Of a stretch of 61,433 bases of DNA, positions 498 to 59,953 are shown in pieces. The notes under the pieces are model-generated. The model was not told the origin of the DNA. It searched no databases and saw only the letters and a program-made list of their open reading frames with translations. A program made the translations under genes and the position numbers. The DNA comes from a virus. The number at the start of each line of letters is the position of its first letter. Position 1 is the stretch's first letter. The stretch spans positions 1 to 61,433 of the IMG/VR virus record IMGVR_UViG_3300032307_000254, one strand, 5' to 3'.

Positions 498-769
498 TGG
501 AGCAGACTGTCGAATGGGGCACGACGCTGGTCGTGGCAACAGCGGGTCACGTCTGGGTGGCCAAGTCCATCACCTACGATGGGCAGTTCTATCACCTGCA
601 TAACGCACGCGCCGTGCGGCGCTGGGGCACGACGGAGGGTCTCAACGAGCTGGTGCGTGGCCCGACCAAAGATACGGTGCTTGACGCCCCTGCGCCCCTG
701 CTGACGGTGGTGCCGGTCGCTATGATCGCGCTCATCCCGTGCAGCGAGGGCTGCTGGCCCGACTGGTGA
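497..769 (+). CDS. Small hypothetical protein (90 aa)
   Basis: It starts at ATG 497 inside a TGATG junction with the previous gene, with GGGAGCAAAC upstream. The N-terminal half looks like a compact beta fold (EWGTTLVVATAGHVWVAKSITYDGQFYHLHNARAVRRWGTT in register, given here only as its outline: strands rich in V, T, W and Y). Residues 69-83 (LTVVPVAMIALIPCS) are hydrophobic. No family is recognised. Its stop at 767-769 overlaps the ATG of the first Gly-rich repeat gene by one base, so it is probably translated together with that family. Confidence 0.55.
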   Translation: MEQTVEWGTTLVVATAGHVWVAKSITYDGQFYHLHNARAVRRWGTTEGLNELVRGPTKDTVLDAPAPLLTVVPVAMIALIPCSEGCWPDW

Positions 770-1008
770 TGGGGGCGTGCGGGGTGGGCAACCACCCCAT
801 CCACCTCTGGGCTCTGCTGGCTGGAAAGGGTGAGTTTTTCACGGGTTACAGCATGGGTGTAGTAGTCAACCATGGCTACGGCGACGGCAACCATGGAAAC
901 GGAGAGGGTAACGGCTGGGGCTCTAGAGGCAAAGACAGCGGTGGCGGTCATAACTACGGTTGGGGTGGAGGACATGGGAATGAACGAGGCGGTGGCCCTG
1001 ACTCATAA
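769..1008 (+). CDS. Gly-rich mini-protein, paralog 1 of 4 (NHPIHLW type)
   Basis: This 79-residue product starts at ATG 769, sharing one base with the preceding stop (TGATG). Residues 8-17 read NHPIHLWALL, followed by a short variable segment and a tail of about 45 residues made almost only of G, D, N, H, W and Y (for example HGYGDGNHGNGEGNGWG). Three further genes immediately downstream have the same plan. I know no named family with this arrangement. The tail is likely disordered or a loose glycine-loop fold, possibly able to bind metal or self-assemble, but nothing in the sequence proves a role. Confidence 0.6.
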   Translation: MGACGVGNHPIHLWALLAGKGEFFTGYSMGVVVNHGYGDGNHGNGEGNGWGSRGKDSGGGHNYGWGGGHGNERGGGPDS

Positions 1009-1291
1009 TAAGCACCCCATCCACCTCTGGCCCCTGCTGATCGTAGGAAGCGTGCTCCACGACGACTCTCTGTGTGGTGAGAAGGACTACACCAGCAACT
1101 GCGGCGACGGCGACGGCGATGGTGCCGGACATGGTGGCATCAACGGTAACGGCTACGGCTACGGCGACGGCTTGGTGGCAGGAGGTGGCTGGGGTGACAC
1201 TCGCTACGGCGACGGCTGCGGCAACGGCGACGGTAGCGGAGAGGGTGGTTATGACACTGGTGACGGTAGCGGGGATGGCAGCTGTGACTAA
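980..1291 (+). CDS. Gly-rich mini-protein, paralog 2 of 4 (KHPIHLW type)
   Basis: The ATG at 980 is preferred because GGAGG lies eight bases before it; ATG 974 is the alternative but sits too close. The product is 103 residues. It carries KHPIHLWPLLIVGS near the N-terminus, a short segment with two Cys (DSLCGEKDYTSNC), then a long tail of GDG, GNG and GYG units. It is in a different frame from paralog 1 and overlaps it by 29 bases. It is the longest of the four copies. The shared N-terminal motif plus Gly/Asp tail is the evidence for a real gene family; function unknown. Confidence 0.6.
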   Translation: MNEAVALTHNKHPIHLWPLLIVGSVLHDDSLCGEKDYTSNCGDGDGDGAGHGGINGNGYGYGDGLVAGGGWGDTRYGDGCGNGDGSGEGGYDTGDGSGDGSCD

Positions 1292-1517
1292 GCACCCCAT
1301 CCACCTCTGGCCCCTGCTGGTCATTGGGTCGGACACTTGGTTTAGCCACAATGGCAGATGGACCGGTGACGGCGGGGGTAATGGCTGCGAATACGACGTA
1401 ATCGGCGGCTGCGGCTGGGGCAAAGGCGATGCAGCTGATGTCTATGGCGGTGGCTGGGGTGACACTACTCGCGGCGACGGCGCTGGAAACGGTTGGGGCG
1501 TTGAAGAATATGACTAA
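1284..1517 (+). CDS. Gly-rich mini-protein, paralog 3 of 4 (KHPIHLW type)
   Basis: The chosen start is GTG 1284 (GTGACTAAGCACCCC), matching exactly the layout of paralog 4 (ATGACTAAGCACCCC), where the upstream stop TAA is nested inside the new start and the overlap is 8 bases. ATG 1275 is an alternative that would add three residues. The 77-residue product has TKHPIHLWPLLVIGS at residues 2-16, a short aromatic stretch (DTWFSHNGRW), two Cys and a Gly/Asp/Trp-rich tail ending EEYD. Function unknown; the conserved junction is strong evidence of duplication. Confidence 0.6.
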   Translation: MTKHPIHLWPLLVIGSDTWFSHNGRWTGDGGGNGCEYDVIGGCGWGKGDAADVYGGGWGDTTRGDGAGNGWGVEEYD

Positions 1518-1740
1518 GCACCCCGTCCACATATGGCCCCTGCTGCTGCATGGGTCCGAGACTTTCGATGCGGGTTTCGCCCTTGGTTACAAGGACTACC
1601 ACAGTATGGTTAGGAAAGGTGATGGCTACGGCTACGGCGCAAGCTACGGCTACGGTGATGGTGACGACGCCAACGGCCACGGTGGAGGCCGGGGCGACGG
1701 CAGTGTCTATGGGATGCAAGATGGCGACGGGCAGGGTTGA
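1510..1740 (+). CDS. Gly-rich mini-protein, paralog 4 of 4 (KHPVHIW type)
   Basis: It starts at ATG 1510 and overlaps paralog 3 by 8 bases. The 76-residue product begins MTKHPVHIWPLLLHGSE, then GFALGYKDYHSM, then a tail in which G alternates with D, Y, N and R (GDGYGYGASYGYGDGDD). It is the most divergent copy at the DNA level: CACCCCGTCCACATATGG against CACCCCATCCACCTCTGG in the other three. Divergence at synonymous or conservative positions suggests the protein motif is under selection. No known family recognised. Confidence 0.6.
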   Translation: MTKHPVHIWPLLLHGSETFDAGFALGYKDYHSMVRKGDGYGYGASYGYGDGDDANGHGGGRGDGSVYGMQDGDGQG

Positions 1741-1919: not shown

Positions 1920-1921
1920 GG

Positions 1922-1950
1922 TTGACAATAGCACTTATCTGTGCTACATA
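1922..1950 (+). promoter_or_regulatory. Sigma-70-type promoter with operator-like inverted repeat
   Basis: A consensus -35 box TTGACA (1922-1927) is followed after 17 bases by TACATA (1945-1950), or CATAAT two bases later, as the -10 box. Between and over these boxes lies a perfect inverted repeat TAGCAC-N6-GTGCTA (1929-1934 and 1941-1946), placed where a repressor would block polymerase. The 14 bases TGTGCTACATAATG (1940-1953) recur in opposite orientation at 60,297-60,310. It would drive the VWA/AAA module and probably the whole early arm. Confidence 0.7.
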
Positions 1951-1959
1951 ATGAGGGCA

Positions 1960-2031: not shown

Positions 2032-3237
2032 ATGCTTTCCGCTGATCGGAAATTGAAGAAGGCCAAGCTCGACGTGATGCGCTCGACCCTGCCGGGTCTC
2101 CGGCTCTGGGCTGGTGTCATGTCGATAGGGAAAACTTCCCTCTCTGAGACTACGCCTACGGCCTATACCAACGGGCGCGATGAGGTCTACGGCACCGCTT
2201 TCATCGAGCGACTGCCGGTCAAGCAGGTCAGCTTTGTCTGTCTGCATGAGGCTATGCACAAGGGGCTGCGGCACCTGACCGTGTGGCGCAAGCTGTTCGA
2301 GAAGAACGCGAAGCTCGCCAACATGGCTTGTGACTACGTGGTTAACCGCACCATCAAGGCTGCCGACCCGCACGAGAGCGTGGTGCAGATGCCGCGCAAT
2401 CCAGACGGTAGCTTGCTCGGGCTATACGACCCGCGCTTCGACGGCATGTCGGCCAAGCAGGTGTTCGACATACTGGAGAAGGAGCAGGGCTCCGGCGATG
2501 CAGGCGACGGTGGCGGTGGCGAGGGCTTCGATGAGCATGGCTGGGACGACGCGCAGTCTCTCCCTGCCGAGGAGCAACAGGCGCTCCAGAAGGAGATCGA
2601 CATGGCGCTGCGGCGCGGTGAGATCGAGGCTAAGAAGTGCGGTGCTGGCAAGGGCGACATCCCCGCAGAGCTTGGCGAGCTGCTACGCCCGCAGATCAAC
2701 TGGAAGGACGCGCTGCAAGAGTTCATCACGCAGAATTGCACAACCAAGGACGACAGCAGTTACCGGCGCTTGAACCGGCGCTTCCACGCGCTCGACCTTA
2801 TCCTGCCCACGCCCTACGGCGAGAGCATGGGGCATATCGTGGTGGGTGCTGACCTGTCCGGCTCTATGTGGTGCGGCAACCCGTCGGACATGCAGAAGAT
2901 ACTCTCCGAGTTCGTGGGCATCGCCAACATGGTCAACCCCGAGCGGGTCGATCTGATCTACTGGGACAGCCACGTCACCGGTCACGAGGAATACAAGCAG
3001 GGTGACTACGACATGCTGCGGCAGGTGATGAAGCCACGTGGTGGCGGTGGCACCGACCCGTCGTGCGTCCCGCCCTACCTCAAGGAGAAGGACATCAAGC
3101 CCGACTGCATCGTGATGCTGACCGACGGCGAGGTGTTCAACCAGTGGGGCAGCAACTGGCCCGCCCCTGTGCTGTGGGTCATCTGCGGCAACCGCAACGT
3201 GACTGCCGGAACCGGCAAGACCGTCCACATGGACTGA
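2032..3237 (+). CDS. Metallopeptidase-like / VWA-like domain protein
   Basis: The 401-residue product has a zinc-peptidase-like HEAMH at 72-76 and a C-terminal von Willebrand A fold with the metal site DLSGSM at 273-278, a Gly-Thr-Asp at 339-341 and TDGE at 363-366. A low-complexity Gly/Asp linker (152-165) joins the halves. This layout matches the DUF2201 group of putative metallopeptidase plus VWA-like proteins. Such proteins commonly pair with a MoxR-type AAA ATPase, and one follows here 69 bases downstream. By analogy it may be the substrate-handling partner of a phage chaperone or remodelling machine; the target is unknown. The start has GGAGCAAAC upstream. Confidence 0.8.
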   Translation: MLSADRKLKKAKLDVMRSTLPGLRLWAGVMSIGKTSLSETTPTAYTNGRDEVYGTAFIERLPVKQVSFVCLHEAMHKGLRHLTVWRKLFEKNAKLANMACDYVVNRTIKAADPHESVVQMPRNPDGSLLGLYDPRFDGMSAKQVFDILEKEQGSGDAGDGGGGEGFDEHGWDDAQSLPAEEQQALQKEIDMALRRGEIEAKKCGAGKGDIPAELGELLRPQINWKDALQEFITQNCTTKDDSSYRRLNRRFHALDLILPTPYGESMGHIVVGADLSGSMWCGNPSDMQKILSEFVGIANMVNPERVDLIYWDSHVTGHEEYKQGDYDMLRQVMKPRGGGGTDPSCVPPYLKEKDIKPDCIVMLTDGEVFNQWGSNWPAPVLWVICGNRNVTAGTGKTVHMD

Positions 3238-3262
3238 GATTTAAGAGAGCGTGTCATTTACC

Positions 3263-3274
3263 TTACCCGAGTAA
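3263..3274 (+). promoter_or_regulatory. TTAC-N4-GTAA operator-like site
   Basis: TTACCCGAGTAA lies between the VWA gene and the AAA ATPase gene. It is the exact reverse complement of the site at 1985-1996 and shares both half sites with the pair at 60,222 and 60,270. Its intergenic position fits a binding site for a phage regulator. No obvious promoter boxes surround it. Confidence 0.4.
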
Positions 3275-3306
3275 CCAACCCACTACTACAATAGGAGCAA
3301 GCAACC

Positions 3307-4383
3307 ATGACTACCATCAACATGAACCCGCGTGTCTCGCTCGTCGAGGCTGCCGACCTCATCGCTGCTGTCGGCGTCAGCAACACTGTCCTGCTCAAGG
3401 GCGAGAAGGGCATCGGCAAGTCGAGCATCATGAAGGTGCTCAAGTCACGACTCGGTGCCGACTATGAGTATGCCTACTTCGATATGGGCAACAAGTCCGA
3501 GGGCGACACCGCCATCCCGTTCCCTGACCGCGAGCGCAAGGTCATGGAGTTCTTCATCAACACCGCGCTCAAGCTGCATACTGGCAAGCCCGTGGTCATC
3601 ATGCTGGACGAGTTCGGCAAGGCTCCGCGCTCCATCCAGAACATGATGCACACGCTGCTGGAGGTGGACAACAAGCGCATCCAAGACACCTTCCTGCCCG
3701 AGGGCAGCATCGTCTTCCTGACCACCAACCTGTCCGAGGAGGGGCTGGGTGACGCGCTGCTCGATCACAGTATCGACCGCCTGACCGTGGTCGAGGTGGC
3801 CAAGCCGACTGCCGATGAGTGGAAGCTCTGGGCTGCCGAGAATGACGTGCATCCTGCGCTCCTCGCGTGGGTCGATCAGACGCCGACCGTGCTGGCATCG
3901 TTCCGCGACTCGGACTTCGACGCTGATAACCCCTACGTCTATAACCCGAGGCGTGTGCAGGGTAAGTTCATCACCCCGCGCTCGCTGGAGCTCGCGTCCA
4001 ACATCGTCTGGAAGCGCAAGGACATCAGCGCCAACACGCTGTTCTGCGCGCTGGTGGGCACCATCGGCACGGTGGGGGCCAACGATCTTGCTGCCTATCT
4101 CTCTTATCAGGACGAGATTCCGACGCGTGACGTTATCCTCAACTCGCCCGGCACTGCGCCTATCCCGACGTCGGTAGGGGCAATCATCACGCTGCTGTTC
4201 AACCTTGAGCGTGCTGTGGACGGTGAGACCATCACGCCGATCATGGAGTATATCGGTCGCCTCGAAGCCGAGCATCAGGCGGTGTTCTGCACCACCCTCG
4301 CACGGTCGCCATCCAAGCAGACCTTCGCCTTCCGCAACAAGGCGTTCACCAACTGGGCTCGGGACAATCAGGATATTCTGTGA
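3307..4383 (+). CDS. MoxR-type AAA+ ATPase
   Basis: This 358-residue protein has a Walker A motif GEKGIGKSS (32-40), Walker B VVIMLDEF (96-103), a sensor-1-like TTN (139-141) and an arginine in DHSIDRL (near 158) where an arginine finger is expected. This is the pattern of MoxR/RavA-like AAA+ ATPases. Such enzymes use ATP to remodel proteins, usually together with a VWA-domain partner, here the gene just upstream. Start ATG 3307 follows TAGGAGCAAGC. The C-terminal third (from about residue 215) has no clear motif and may bind the partner or target. Family call is firm; target unknown. Confidence 0.85.
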   Translation: MTTINMNPRVSLVEAADLIAAVGVSNTVLLKGEKGIGKSSIMKVLKSRLGADYEYAYFDMGNKSEGDTAIPFPDRERKVMEFFINTALKLHTGKPVVIMLDEFGKAPRSIQNMMHTLLEVDNKRIQDTFLPEGSIVFLTTNLSEEGLGDALLDHSIDRLTVVEVAKPTADEWKLWAAENDVHPALLAWVDQTPTVLASFRDSDFDADNPYVYNPRRVQGKFITPRSLELASNIVWKRKDISANTLFCALVGTIGTVGANDLAAYLSYQDEIPTRDVILNSPGTAPIPTSVGAIITLLFNLERAVDGETITPIMEYIGRLEAEHQAVFCTTLARSPSKQTFAFRNKAFTNWARDNQDIL

Positions 4384-57595: not shown

Positions 57596-59145
57596 TAGTA
57601 GTACCCCTGATGTCTGTTGGACTTGAAATACACGGGATCATCTTCTGCGTCTAGCGCAGTAGTCACATATCCGCCCTTGCGGAACCTGTGCATCGCCATG
57701 GACACGGTATCGACATAGTCGTCGTGCTCGCCGCCCGGGAAGCTGGCCACCTCGTCGATGACCTCTTCAGCCCAGTGGGTGCCCGGTGCCCAGACGCGCC
57801 CGGAGGCGAAAAGGTCGGAGACCGCGTTGAGACGGCTGATCTTGTCGTTACCCCTCGTCGGGGTGAACTCCTGCACCGGTATGCCCATGGCCCGCATCTC
57901 GTAGATGAGCGGCGCACCCGATGCCTTCTTTTCGATGATAACGCTGTCCGGGTCCCAGTCCCGGTACTCCTCAATGGCCGTGCGCTTCAGCGTCGGGAAC
58001 TCCATGCGGTCCCGGAACGCGTTGAGGAGGATGATATTGGCCTGCTCGATGCCGTTGTCGTCTGGGTGGTAGAACACGCCCCATGTGGTGCACGCCGAAT
58101 AGTCGGCTCGCTGCGTCTTCTCGAAGGCCGTATCCCAGCTCTGGAGGATGAATTCGCACTGTGGCGGGTCGTCACGCTCCCACGTCTTCCACCACTCGCG
58201 CTTCACGATGGCGCTCTGATCCCCGGTCGGGTTCTGCTGGTACTGCGCCATCCACTTCGAGTTGGGCAGTTCTTCCTTGAGGGCCGCAAGCTCCTTGAGG
58301 CTCCAGAACTCGGGCCACAGGGGCTGCCCGGAGGGCAAAAGCGCAGGAAATTCAATGACTTCCCACTCGTCACCACCGCGCTGAGCGGCACTTTTGAGCA
58401 CCTGAGCGGTCAGATCGCGCTTCGACCAGCGCGTCATCACGATGACGATGGCCCCACCCGGCTGGAGACGCTGACGCGGACCCGATGTGTACCACTCGTA
58501 GGTCTTGTCGTAGATGTCCGGGTTGATTTCCGCGAGCGCAGCCTCCTGCTCGCTGTGCGGGTCGTCGATGATGAGCACGTCAGCACCCTTACCGGTCACC
58601 GCACCGCCCACACCGATGGCGAAATAGTCACCACCTTTGGACGTGTTCCAGCGGCCAGCCGCCTTCGAGTCTGCGCTCAGGCTCAGATCGGGGAAAATCT
58701 GGTGGTAGACGTCGGTATCGACGAGGTTACGCACCTTACGCCCAAAGCCCACGGCCAATTCCGCCGTGTGCGACGTCTGGATCACCTTCTTCTGGGGAAA
58801 TTTACCCAGAAACCACGCCGGGAGCAGGTAGGAGGCGAATTCGGACTTGGTATGGCGCGGCGGCATGTTGATGATGAGCCGTTTGAGCTCCCCACGTGCC
58901 ACGCGCTCGAACGCATCAGCCATCTTGGCGTGGTGCCGACCCCCGATGAAGGTCGGCCAGACCTCCTGCACGAACGCCATGAACTTATCGCGGCACGCCT
59001 GCCGCCTCTTGAGGTTCTCCAGCTTCTCCAGCTCGGCCAGCAGCTGCTCCTGCTCCGCTAGAGACAACAGAGGCAGAATCTTCGGAATGTCATCAAGGTC
59101 GATCTCGTCGATCACCTGCATGTTGGGGCGACCCACCTTGGCCAT
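57595..59145 (-). CDS. Terminase large subunit
   Basis: The 516-residue protein has Walker A MPPRHTKSE (94-102), Walker B VLIIDDPHSE (190-199), a coupling MTRW (237-240), and the nuclease acids D338 (SWDTAF), E405 (IEKKASG) and D475/D476/D479 (HDDYVDT). It is the ATP-driven motor that pumps DNA into the head and cuts it. ATG 59145 overlaps the small-terminase stop by one base (TGATG); GTG 59148 is also possible. Confidence very high. Confidence 0.95.
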   Translation of the reverse strand: MAKVGRPNMQVIDEIDLDDIPKILPLLSLAEQEQLLAELEKLENLKRRQACRDKFMAFVQEVWPTFIGGRHHAKMADAFERVARGELKRLIINMPPRHTKSEFASYLLPAWFLGKFPQKKVIQTSHTAELAVGFGRKVRNLVDTDVYHQIFPDLSLSADSKAAGRWNTSKGGDYFAIGVGGAVTGKGADVLIIDDPHSEQEAALAEINPDIYDKTYEWYTSGPRQRLQPGGAIVIVMTRWSKRDLTAQVLKSAAQRGGDEWEVIEFPALLPSGQPLWPEFWSLKELAALKEELPNSKWMAQYQQNPTGDQSAIVKREWWKTWERDDPPQCEFILQSWDTAFEKTQRADYSACTTWGVFYHPDDNGIEQANIILLNAFRDRMEFPTLKRTAIEEYRDWDPDSVIIEKKASGAPLIYEMRAMGIPVQEFTPTRGNDKISRLNAVSDLFASGRVWAPGTHWAEEVIDEVASFPGGEHDDYVDTVSMAMHRFRKGGYVTTALDAEDDPVYFKSNRHQGYY

Positions 59146-59741
59146 CACTCGTCGCCTTCGGCCTCTTCGGCGTCGATTGGCCGCTCGTACACGCCAAGCT
59201 CGTCATCGAGGTCCATACCCGGTGGGGTTACGTCGATCACCTGCGCATTGAGCAGCCGCTTTACCCGCTCCTTGATCGCCGCTTCGAGGGCATCCGGGCT
59301 GTTGTAGTTGATCGTGATCTCGCTGCGCTCATTGAACAGGGCAATATCGCTGTGCTTGCCCAGCAGCTCCAGCGCCTTCAGCTCATACTTGGTCTGGCCG
59401 CAGTTGGCGATTTCCAGCAGCTTATTGGTCAGCGCGGCGCGCACCTGCCCCACGTCGAAGGCGATGTTCTGCCCATAGGTCTTGAGGAAGCCGCTGGCTG
59501 CCAGCGCGGTCGAGTAGTTCTTCAGGGGAGCCGCCTGCTGGCGCTTCGCCACGGCGTCGATCAGGGCTTTTTCACGGTCGTAGGTGACCGGGTCCACTTC
59601 CAGCGGGGCACCAAGCTCCTCCAGCGCCTCAGCGGTGTTCGCCGCCACGGAGATTTCCTCCATGAAATTCTGGGTTTTGTCTGGCTCGATGCTGAACGGT
59701 ACCGGATATTCCGAACTCGGTTCGACTTTTACTCTGGCCAT
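59145..59741 (-). CDS. Terminase small subunit
   Basis: ATG 59741 is chosen; longer frames run into the tRNA gene upstream. The 198-residue product is helical with YGQNIAFDVGQVRAALTNKL and a basic, DNA-binding-like middle (REKALIDAVAKRQQAAPLKN), then a segment rich in beta and acidic tail (DDELGVYERPIDAEEAEGDE). Its place just before the large subunit with an overlap of one base fits a TerS that recognises the packaging site. The sequence match is weak, the context strong. Confidence 0.7.
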   Translation of the reverse strand: MARVKVEPSSEYPVPFSIEPDKTQNFMEEISVAANTAEALEELGAPLEVDPVTYDREKALIDAVAKRQQAAPLKNYSTALAASGFLKTYGQNIAFDVGQVRAALTNKLLEIANCGQTKYELKALELLGKHSDIALFNERSEITINYNSPDALEAAIKERVKRLLNAQVIDVTPPGMDLDDELGVYERPIDAEEAEGDE

Positions 59742-59814
59742 GTGGTGCAGCGTCCGGTTTGAGGGAGCAGTAGCGGCTGTGTAACAGCCTACCGGCGTAG
59801 CTGTAAAGGGGAGA

Positions 59815-59890
59815 TGGTCTGGGTGACTGGACTCGAACCAACAACCTCCTGCTCCCAAGGCAGGCGCTCTACCACTTGAGCTACACCCAG
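59815..59890 (-). tRNA. tRNA-Pro (anticodon UGG), CCA encoded
   Basis: Read on the - strand, the acceptor CTGGGTG pairs with CACCCAG, followed by discriminator A and an encoded CCA (59,817-59,815). The D arm is GCTC/GAGC, the anticodon stem CCTGC/GCAGG with loop CTTGGGA, giving anticodon UGG with G at 37. The T arm is GTTGG/CCAGT with two G-U pairs and loop TTCGAGT. The first pair C1-G72 is the usual mark of bacterial tRNA-Pro. It is the first gene of the leftward transcript, just upstream of the terminase. Confidence 0.95.
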
Positions 59891-59953
59891 ATGCGGGCGC
59901 AGCAAGCTGCACCCTTAGGTCGTCGGTCGAGGCTTCGGCGTGTTCATGGGACT

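Follow-up and report, generated by a model that had tools for sequence, protein, structure and literature searches.

Two of the elements considered here are already known, the Sm fold and the presence of a glycine-rich tail on an Sm core. In a close described case, the Hfq protein of Acinetobacter baumannii, the Sm core continues into a disordered stretch of 12 GGFGGQ repeats with an acidic tip, and these alter RNA affinity and autoregulation (PMC11617691). The locus described below resembles this Hfq in joining an Sm-type fold (predicted here) to a disordered chain of Gly-rich repeats with acidic residues. However, the Hfq tail is fused in cis, whereas the tail found here is a separate, multi-copy and hypervariable protein of alternating Gly and another residue, (GX)n. 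No sequence homology is detectable between the Hfq core and the product of the phage gene. Two further points of comparison are the Pfam family DUF6948 (PF22253), to which no function is given and from which the type found here stands apart as a subfamily (WGTxxGLxE), and the proteins with a DUF7666 domain (PF24703), where the same (GX)n run can occur within a larger multi-domain protein. A split, amplified and hypervariable partner of an Sm-like protein has not been described in the literature searched.

Organization of the locus

The window, that is, the whole stretch of DNA that was analysed, comprises the 61,433 bases of an IMG/VR virus record. The terminase it encodes is most similar to those of podovirus-type phages from the sea and fresh water (the HTVC023P/027P, DSL-LC04 and Pag-Yong1 kind). 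Four genes overlapping by their stop and start codons follow each other in this window (Table 1), with products of 75-103 aa that carry an HPIHLWPLL-type head and a tail of Gly, Asp, Tyr and Asn (hereafter GX genes). The ORFs were confirmed as originally predicted, in three reading frames, copies 1 and 4 being in a common one. At the DNA level the head is a 39-nt repeat in four copies with 74-92% identity to the reference copy.

Table 1. Positions of the genes and other features in the window
Feature	Position	Strand	Remarks
DUF6948-related gene, 90 aa	497-769	+	subfamily motif RRWGTxxGLxEL..GP
GX copy 1	769-1008	+	head HPIHLWALL
GX copy 2	980-1291	+	head HPIHLWPLL; most likely start
GX copy 3	1284-1517	+	GTG start, head HPIHLWPLL
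GX copy 4	1510-1740	+	ATG start, head HPVHIWPLL
Promoter-like sequence	1921-1953		seen by eye only
DUF2201-type metallopeptidase/VWA gene, then MoxR-like AAA ATPase gene	2032-4383		
Called ORF	59145-59912		
tRNA-Pro (tgg)	59815-59890	-	inside the start of the called ORF

The ATG of copy 1 overlaps the TGA (767-769) of the upstream gene as TGATG, and copy 2 overlaps copy 1 by 29 nt, its start being most likely ATG 980, with ATG 974 and GTG 992 as alternatives. The original prediction described a conserved junction, GTGACTAAGCACC / ATGACTAAGCACC, in which the upstream TAA is nested in the new start. This is true of copies 3 and 4 only, where the copy 2/copy 3 junction reads GTGACTAA and the copy 3/copy 4 junction ATGACTAA; copy 2 carries CTGACTCATAATAAGCACC, and no junction of this kind precedes copy 1. 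AlphaFold predicts the tail of copy 3 to be disordered (mean pLDDT 45.9), with a weak short helix over the head. The four GX proteins gave no significant Pfam or PHROGs profile match, and four (GX)n relatives were likewise without a PHROGs match. The earlier statement that no family of this form is described stands only for the small genes themselves, but most loci have the DUF6948-type neighbour, and phages commonly carry members of the wider (GX)n family.

The gene directly upstream, which the earlier reading omitted, is part of the same unit. Its product matches the Pfam DUF6948 profile with 26.3 bits (E=8.3e-6), just below the curated cut-off of 27 bits, and three relatives (L040, L015 and L063) score 21.8-23.4 bits. 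We regard it as related to DUF6948 and place it in a neighbouring subfamily, which has the WGTxxGLxE motif. A canonical DUF6948 member (L037) was recognized with E=2.7e-23, and GX genes are found beside canonical members too. With 56 aligned relatives, AlphaFold models the product as a confident barrel (pLDDT 94.7), and nearly all Foldseek matches of this predicted fold are Sm/LSm chains, with probability about 1.0 and TM-score about 0.55, although the E-values are modest (range 0.015-0.1, the best about 0.015-0.02). The PDB entry 3by7, a Sm/LSm-like protein from a marine metagenome, is among the best structural matches; both proteins are small and LSm-like, but share only about 8% sequence identity. 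Since sequence profile searches with the family found no meaningful match to solved LSm or Hfq proteins, we assign the predicted Sm/LSm fold with high confidence, but as a fold and not as family membership.

Relatives of the array

The exact head is absent elsewhere in the scanned viral collection, and a protein query with it gave no phage match. None of the 15 matches of a head-pattern scan was confirmed as a relative, none of the 18 matches of a second head pattern is a GX array, and the single match of a longer DNA head pattern is a chance one, lying antisense inside a RuvC-like gene. Relatives were found with the neighbouring metallopeptidase gene as query, which retrieved 37 related loci, three of them with GX genes, in two cases as tandem arrays. 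In this clade the heads vary by genome (HPIHLWPLL, PPTLLWAKLV, PEYLWAKLVPDG, LLLWPLLFDG, VLHWPKLFEG). When the copies of the window and of five relatives were aligned (17 sequences), L-W-x-x-L alone was invariant and all tails were Gly-X. The check proposed for the head motif thus placed the exact head nowhere else, but a looser one in up to five tandem copies per locus.

The window has four GX copies, and its relatives have five (L078), three (L071, L073 and L079), two (L072), at least two (L074), one (L075) and at least one (L077). Like arrays with other heads thus recur in related phages, which makes the array of the window more than a chance arrangement, and the idea of a real protein family producing variants by duplication is borne out by tandem arrays of up to five copies per locus. 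In copies 2-4 of L078, the 46-nt junction-plus-head DNA is identical and the tails differ, so the unit is duplicated, or homogenized, at its head while its tail diverges. Some other loci also have more than one array. Several GX arrays are interspersed with DUF6948-type genes, two of these in L248, in what look like repeated cassettes (L224, L233 and L248), and the 95.7-kb contig 2814123113_000001 (L081 and L082) carries the DUF6948-type plus GX module twice, with a separate array in each.

Association of the two genes

At loci chosen without regard to the GX gene, the two genes are found together almost constantly. In the subfamily of the window, a (GX)n gene is present at 76 of the 80 best IMG/VR loci, a few of the 76 being scored on a wrong-frame Gly-Thr reading of the array. 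For canonical DUF6948 the count is 77 of 80, and in the three exceptions the contig edge is 21-37 nt past the point from which the distance was counted. Near-identical prophages are present in some of these sets of 80 (about 20 Neisseria-type loci in the canonical one). In bacterial genomes the pair is found in 15 of 16 loci. Across the three sets the GX gene lies nearly always just downstream. The reverse search used loci found by the DNA repeat alone and with room upstream: 57 of 68 arrays have a DUF6948-type gene at most 700 nt upstream on the same strand, and in two further cases one lies elsewhere in the locus. Among 59 phage loci chosen by neither gene, 4 contain both and 54 neither, and the remaining one has a GX-like run that is a linker inside an unrelated protein. 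The profiles behind the reverse and background counts had members from beside GX genes among their training sequences, and many of the loci counted for pairing are partial contigs.

The GX gene follows the DUF6948-type gene in every named phage checked, namely Rheinheimera Barba1A, Rhodobacter RcapNL, Myoviridae ctOK67, Chlorobiaceae CV-1-33, Iodobacter PhiPLPE, Vibrio IKEMa6-1 and Pectobacterium Koroua. In HTVC027P and DSL-LC04, two phages related to the window by terminase, both genes were absent from the 50 kb and 34 kb covered. The tail is not exclusive to the neighbour of a DUF6948-type gene, since (GX)n runs also occur within larger phage proteins, after the DUF7666 domain in L231 (3353-3834) and before a shared C-terminal domain in the gut phages L069 and L070 (near 2270). 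In L203 (1600-1988), two GX genes (MKYPKGYGYG...) lie behind another kind of gene, and no DUF6948-type partner could be detected. Should the pairing reflect a joint function, the predicted LSm-type protein and its separately encoded, very fast-evolving low-complexity tail would make up a module widespread among phages and prophages across many bacterial phyla.

Evolution of the tails

The tails are hypervariable between near-identical phages and change in hexanucleotide units, their length varying in steps of 6 nt. The length variation that the earlier reading proposed to look for in relatives was therefore found. Barba15S has exactly one hexamer more than Barba1A, Barba9A differs from the Barba array compared by one base at the position that chooses between Tyr, Asp and Asn, and Barba19A keeps the same head with a reshuffled array. 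Koroua and Abuela, two Pectobacterium phages with identical sequence over the 600 nt downstream, differ in the number of hexamers (39 and 31, respectively) and in their order. Neisseria-type prophages also have variable tails, with a full-length frame in 20 of 21 loci; the exception (L347) is truncated and still GX. The frame is intact in all sampled Barba and Pectobacterium phages, so the frameshifts and stops that would have spoken against a protein were not encountered. Tails change fast, and frame and head are kept.

Purifying selection on the protein is indicated for at least one copy by the last-copy pair of L072 and L073 (dN 0.047, dS 0.163, dN/dS about 0.29). The first-copy pair of the same phages gave a weaker result (dN 0.26, dS 0.41, ratio 0.64) and the L077/L078 comparisons gave ratios of about 0.75 and 1.0, as would be expected if tails are fast.

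The hexamer also has a signal at its silent bases. In 84 loci outside the clade of the window it reads GGC-[TGA]-[AC]-C, with within-locus entropies of 0, 0, 0.14, 1.13, 0.59 and 0.19 bits along its six positions; (Gly-Thr)n runs of several loci, which come from reading GGG-NAC arrays out of frame, were left out of this analysis. Both synonymous third positions are thus nearly fixed, while the base choosing Tyr, Asp or Asn is variable, C being almost absent there (0.7%). Protein constraint would ordinarily give the opposite pattern. Gly codons elsewhere in those loci use all four third bases (1.88 bits), and GGC is used in 64 of the 84 arrays, several of them in genomes whose usual Gly codon is GGT or GGA. 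In the clade of the window, including the window array, the third bases are relaxed (0.61 and 0.73 bits) and the head and GX pattern persist, from which we conclude that the protein matters here. Repeat turnover with codon preference could have produced the near-fixed bases, or else the repeat may be recognized at the level of RNA or DNA; being an unusual signal of most arrays, they make a role at the RNA level testable by recoding.

Possible functions

We suggest that the four genes arose in this podovirus clade when one member of a two-gene phage module, the second, was amplified in tandem. The module itself is well supported. The analysis established the pairing and its breadth, the predicted fold and disorder, the copy number, the purifying selection on one copy pair and the hypervariability of the tails. 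The first gene of the module encodes a small DUF6948-type protein with a predicted Sm/LSm fold and the second a short head with a (Gly-X)n tail predicted to be disordered, in which X is mostly Tyr, Asp, Ser or Asn. We read the module as an LSm protein with a detached low-complexity tail, probably acting on RNA and with a presumed role in infection. Through the overlapping stops and starts, a single transcript would yield one LSm-like protein and several tail proteins. The former may assemble into a ring binding RNA or single-stranded nucleic acid. Its detached tails would be the GX proteins, docking on it by their hydrophobic head (LWxxL in this clade). By analogy with the acidic disordered C-terminal tail that acts in cis in Hfq, the acidic, Tyr-rich chain could then tune nucleic-acid binding or cluster the rings. 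This mechanism as a whole is put forward tentatively, as the reading we prefer without counting on it, given that it is built on a fold prediction and the Hfq analogy. It is weakened by the lack of any fusion of the two proteins among the loci examined and of a sequence match to solved LSm proteins, by the modest Foldseek E-values and TM-score, by the GX runs in other proteins and by the weaker signal of selection in the other copy pairs. If the two genes do have a joint function, the module would offer a natural setting in which to study how disordered Gly/Tyr/Asp chains cooperate with RNA-binding rings, evolution having already varied the tails in copy number, length and composition.

The repeat might instead work mainly as RNA or DNA, the LSm-like ring binding the (GGC-N-AC)n of the GX message itself with one hexamer per subunit and one base unread, comparable to the wrapping of spaced triplets by TRAP; the protein would then be a by-product or a co-regulator. 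This would explain the near-fixed silent bases beside a variable Tyr/Asp/Asn base outside the clade of the window, the free third bases of other Gly codons in the same loci and the GGC codons kept against genomic usage. It agrees less well with the kept start codons, heads and frames, with the relaxed third bases but kept head and GX pattern of the window clade and with dN below dS in one copy pair, and a strong codon preference (GGC, TAC, GAC, AAC) with repeat turnover could produce the same pattern; we consider it rather unlikely. A combined form, in which an RNA-binding ring recognizes (GGC-N-AC)n in its own partner gene, the repeat serves both as ring-wrapping RNA and as hypervariable disordered protein, and the podovirus clade of the window has lost the constraint on the RNA while multiplying the protein instead, seems unlikely to us as well.

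The GX proteins alone could act against the host as acidic low-complexity decoys, either nucleic-acid mimics or slippery substrates clogging host proteases, diversified to escape counter-measures. Such a use would suit short, acidic products of early-region genes, located by recombination or single-strand-binding genes in several phages, with hypervariable tails and tandem variants. The near-constant DUF6948-type pairing points rather to a joint role, and net acidity is not conserved, some tails being mostly Ser, Tyr or Asn, which makes decoys distinctly unlikely. A self-assembling (silk-like) or metal-binding structural protein, as originally proposed, is improbable. On general grounds, tails in which Gly strictly alternates with residues such as Tyr and Asp could allow beta-sheet stacking, a hydrogel or Ca2+ binding, but AlphaFold predicts disorder and annotated phages place the gene among early or small hypothetical genes, outside the structural module. 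Asp is dispensable in many copies (27% of X residues overall, some copies having mostly Ser, Asn or Tyr), and metal binding is unlikely as a general function. Finally, GGCNAC repeats are stop-free in every frame of that strand, and this, with the 6-nt length steps and the concerted third bases, is what a selfish hexanucleotide satellite with open frames as a by-product would show. A satellite would hardly keep a fixed place behind one gene family in unrelated phages, nor conserved heads and start codons with a frame switch at each copy of the window, nor dN below dS in one copy pair, and we hold this explanation very improbable. The detached-tail reading remains the one we favour.

Other features of the window

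A promoter-like sequence (TTGACA, 17 nt, TACATAAT) lies between the array and the VWA gene. The DUF2201-type gene is called 'HNH endonuclease' in PHROGs and many phage records, and Pfam gives a metallopeptidase and a VWA domain. Near the other end of the window, a tRNA-Pro gene overlaps the beginning of a called ORF (Table 1), which therefore probably starts later.
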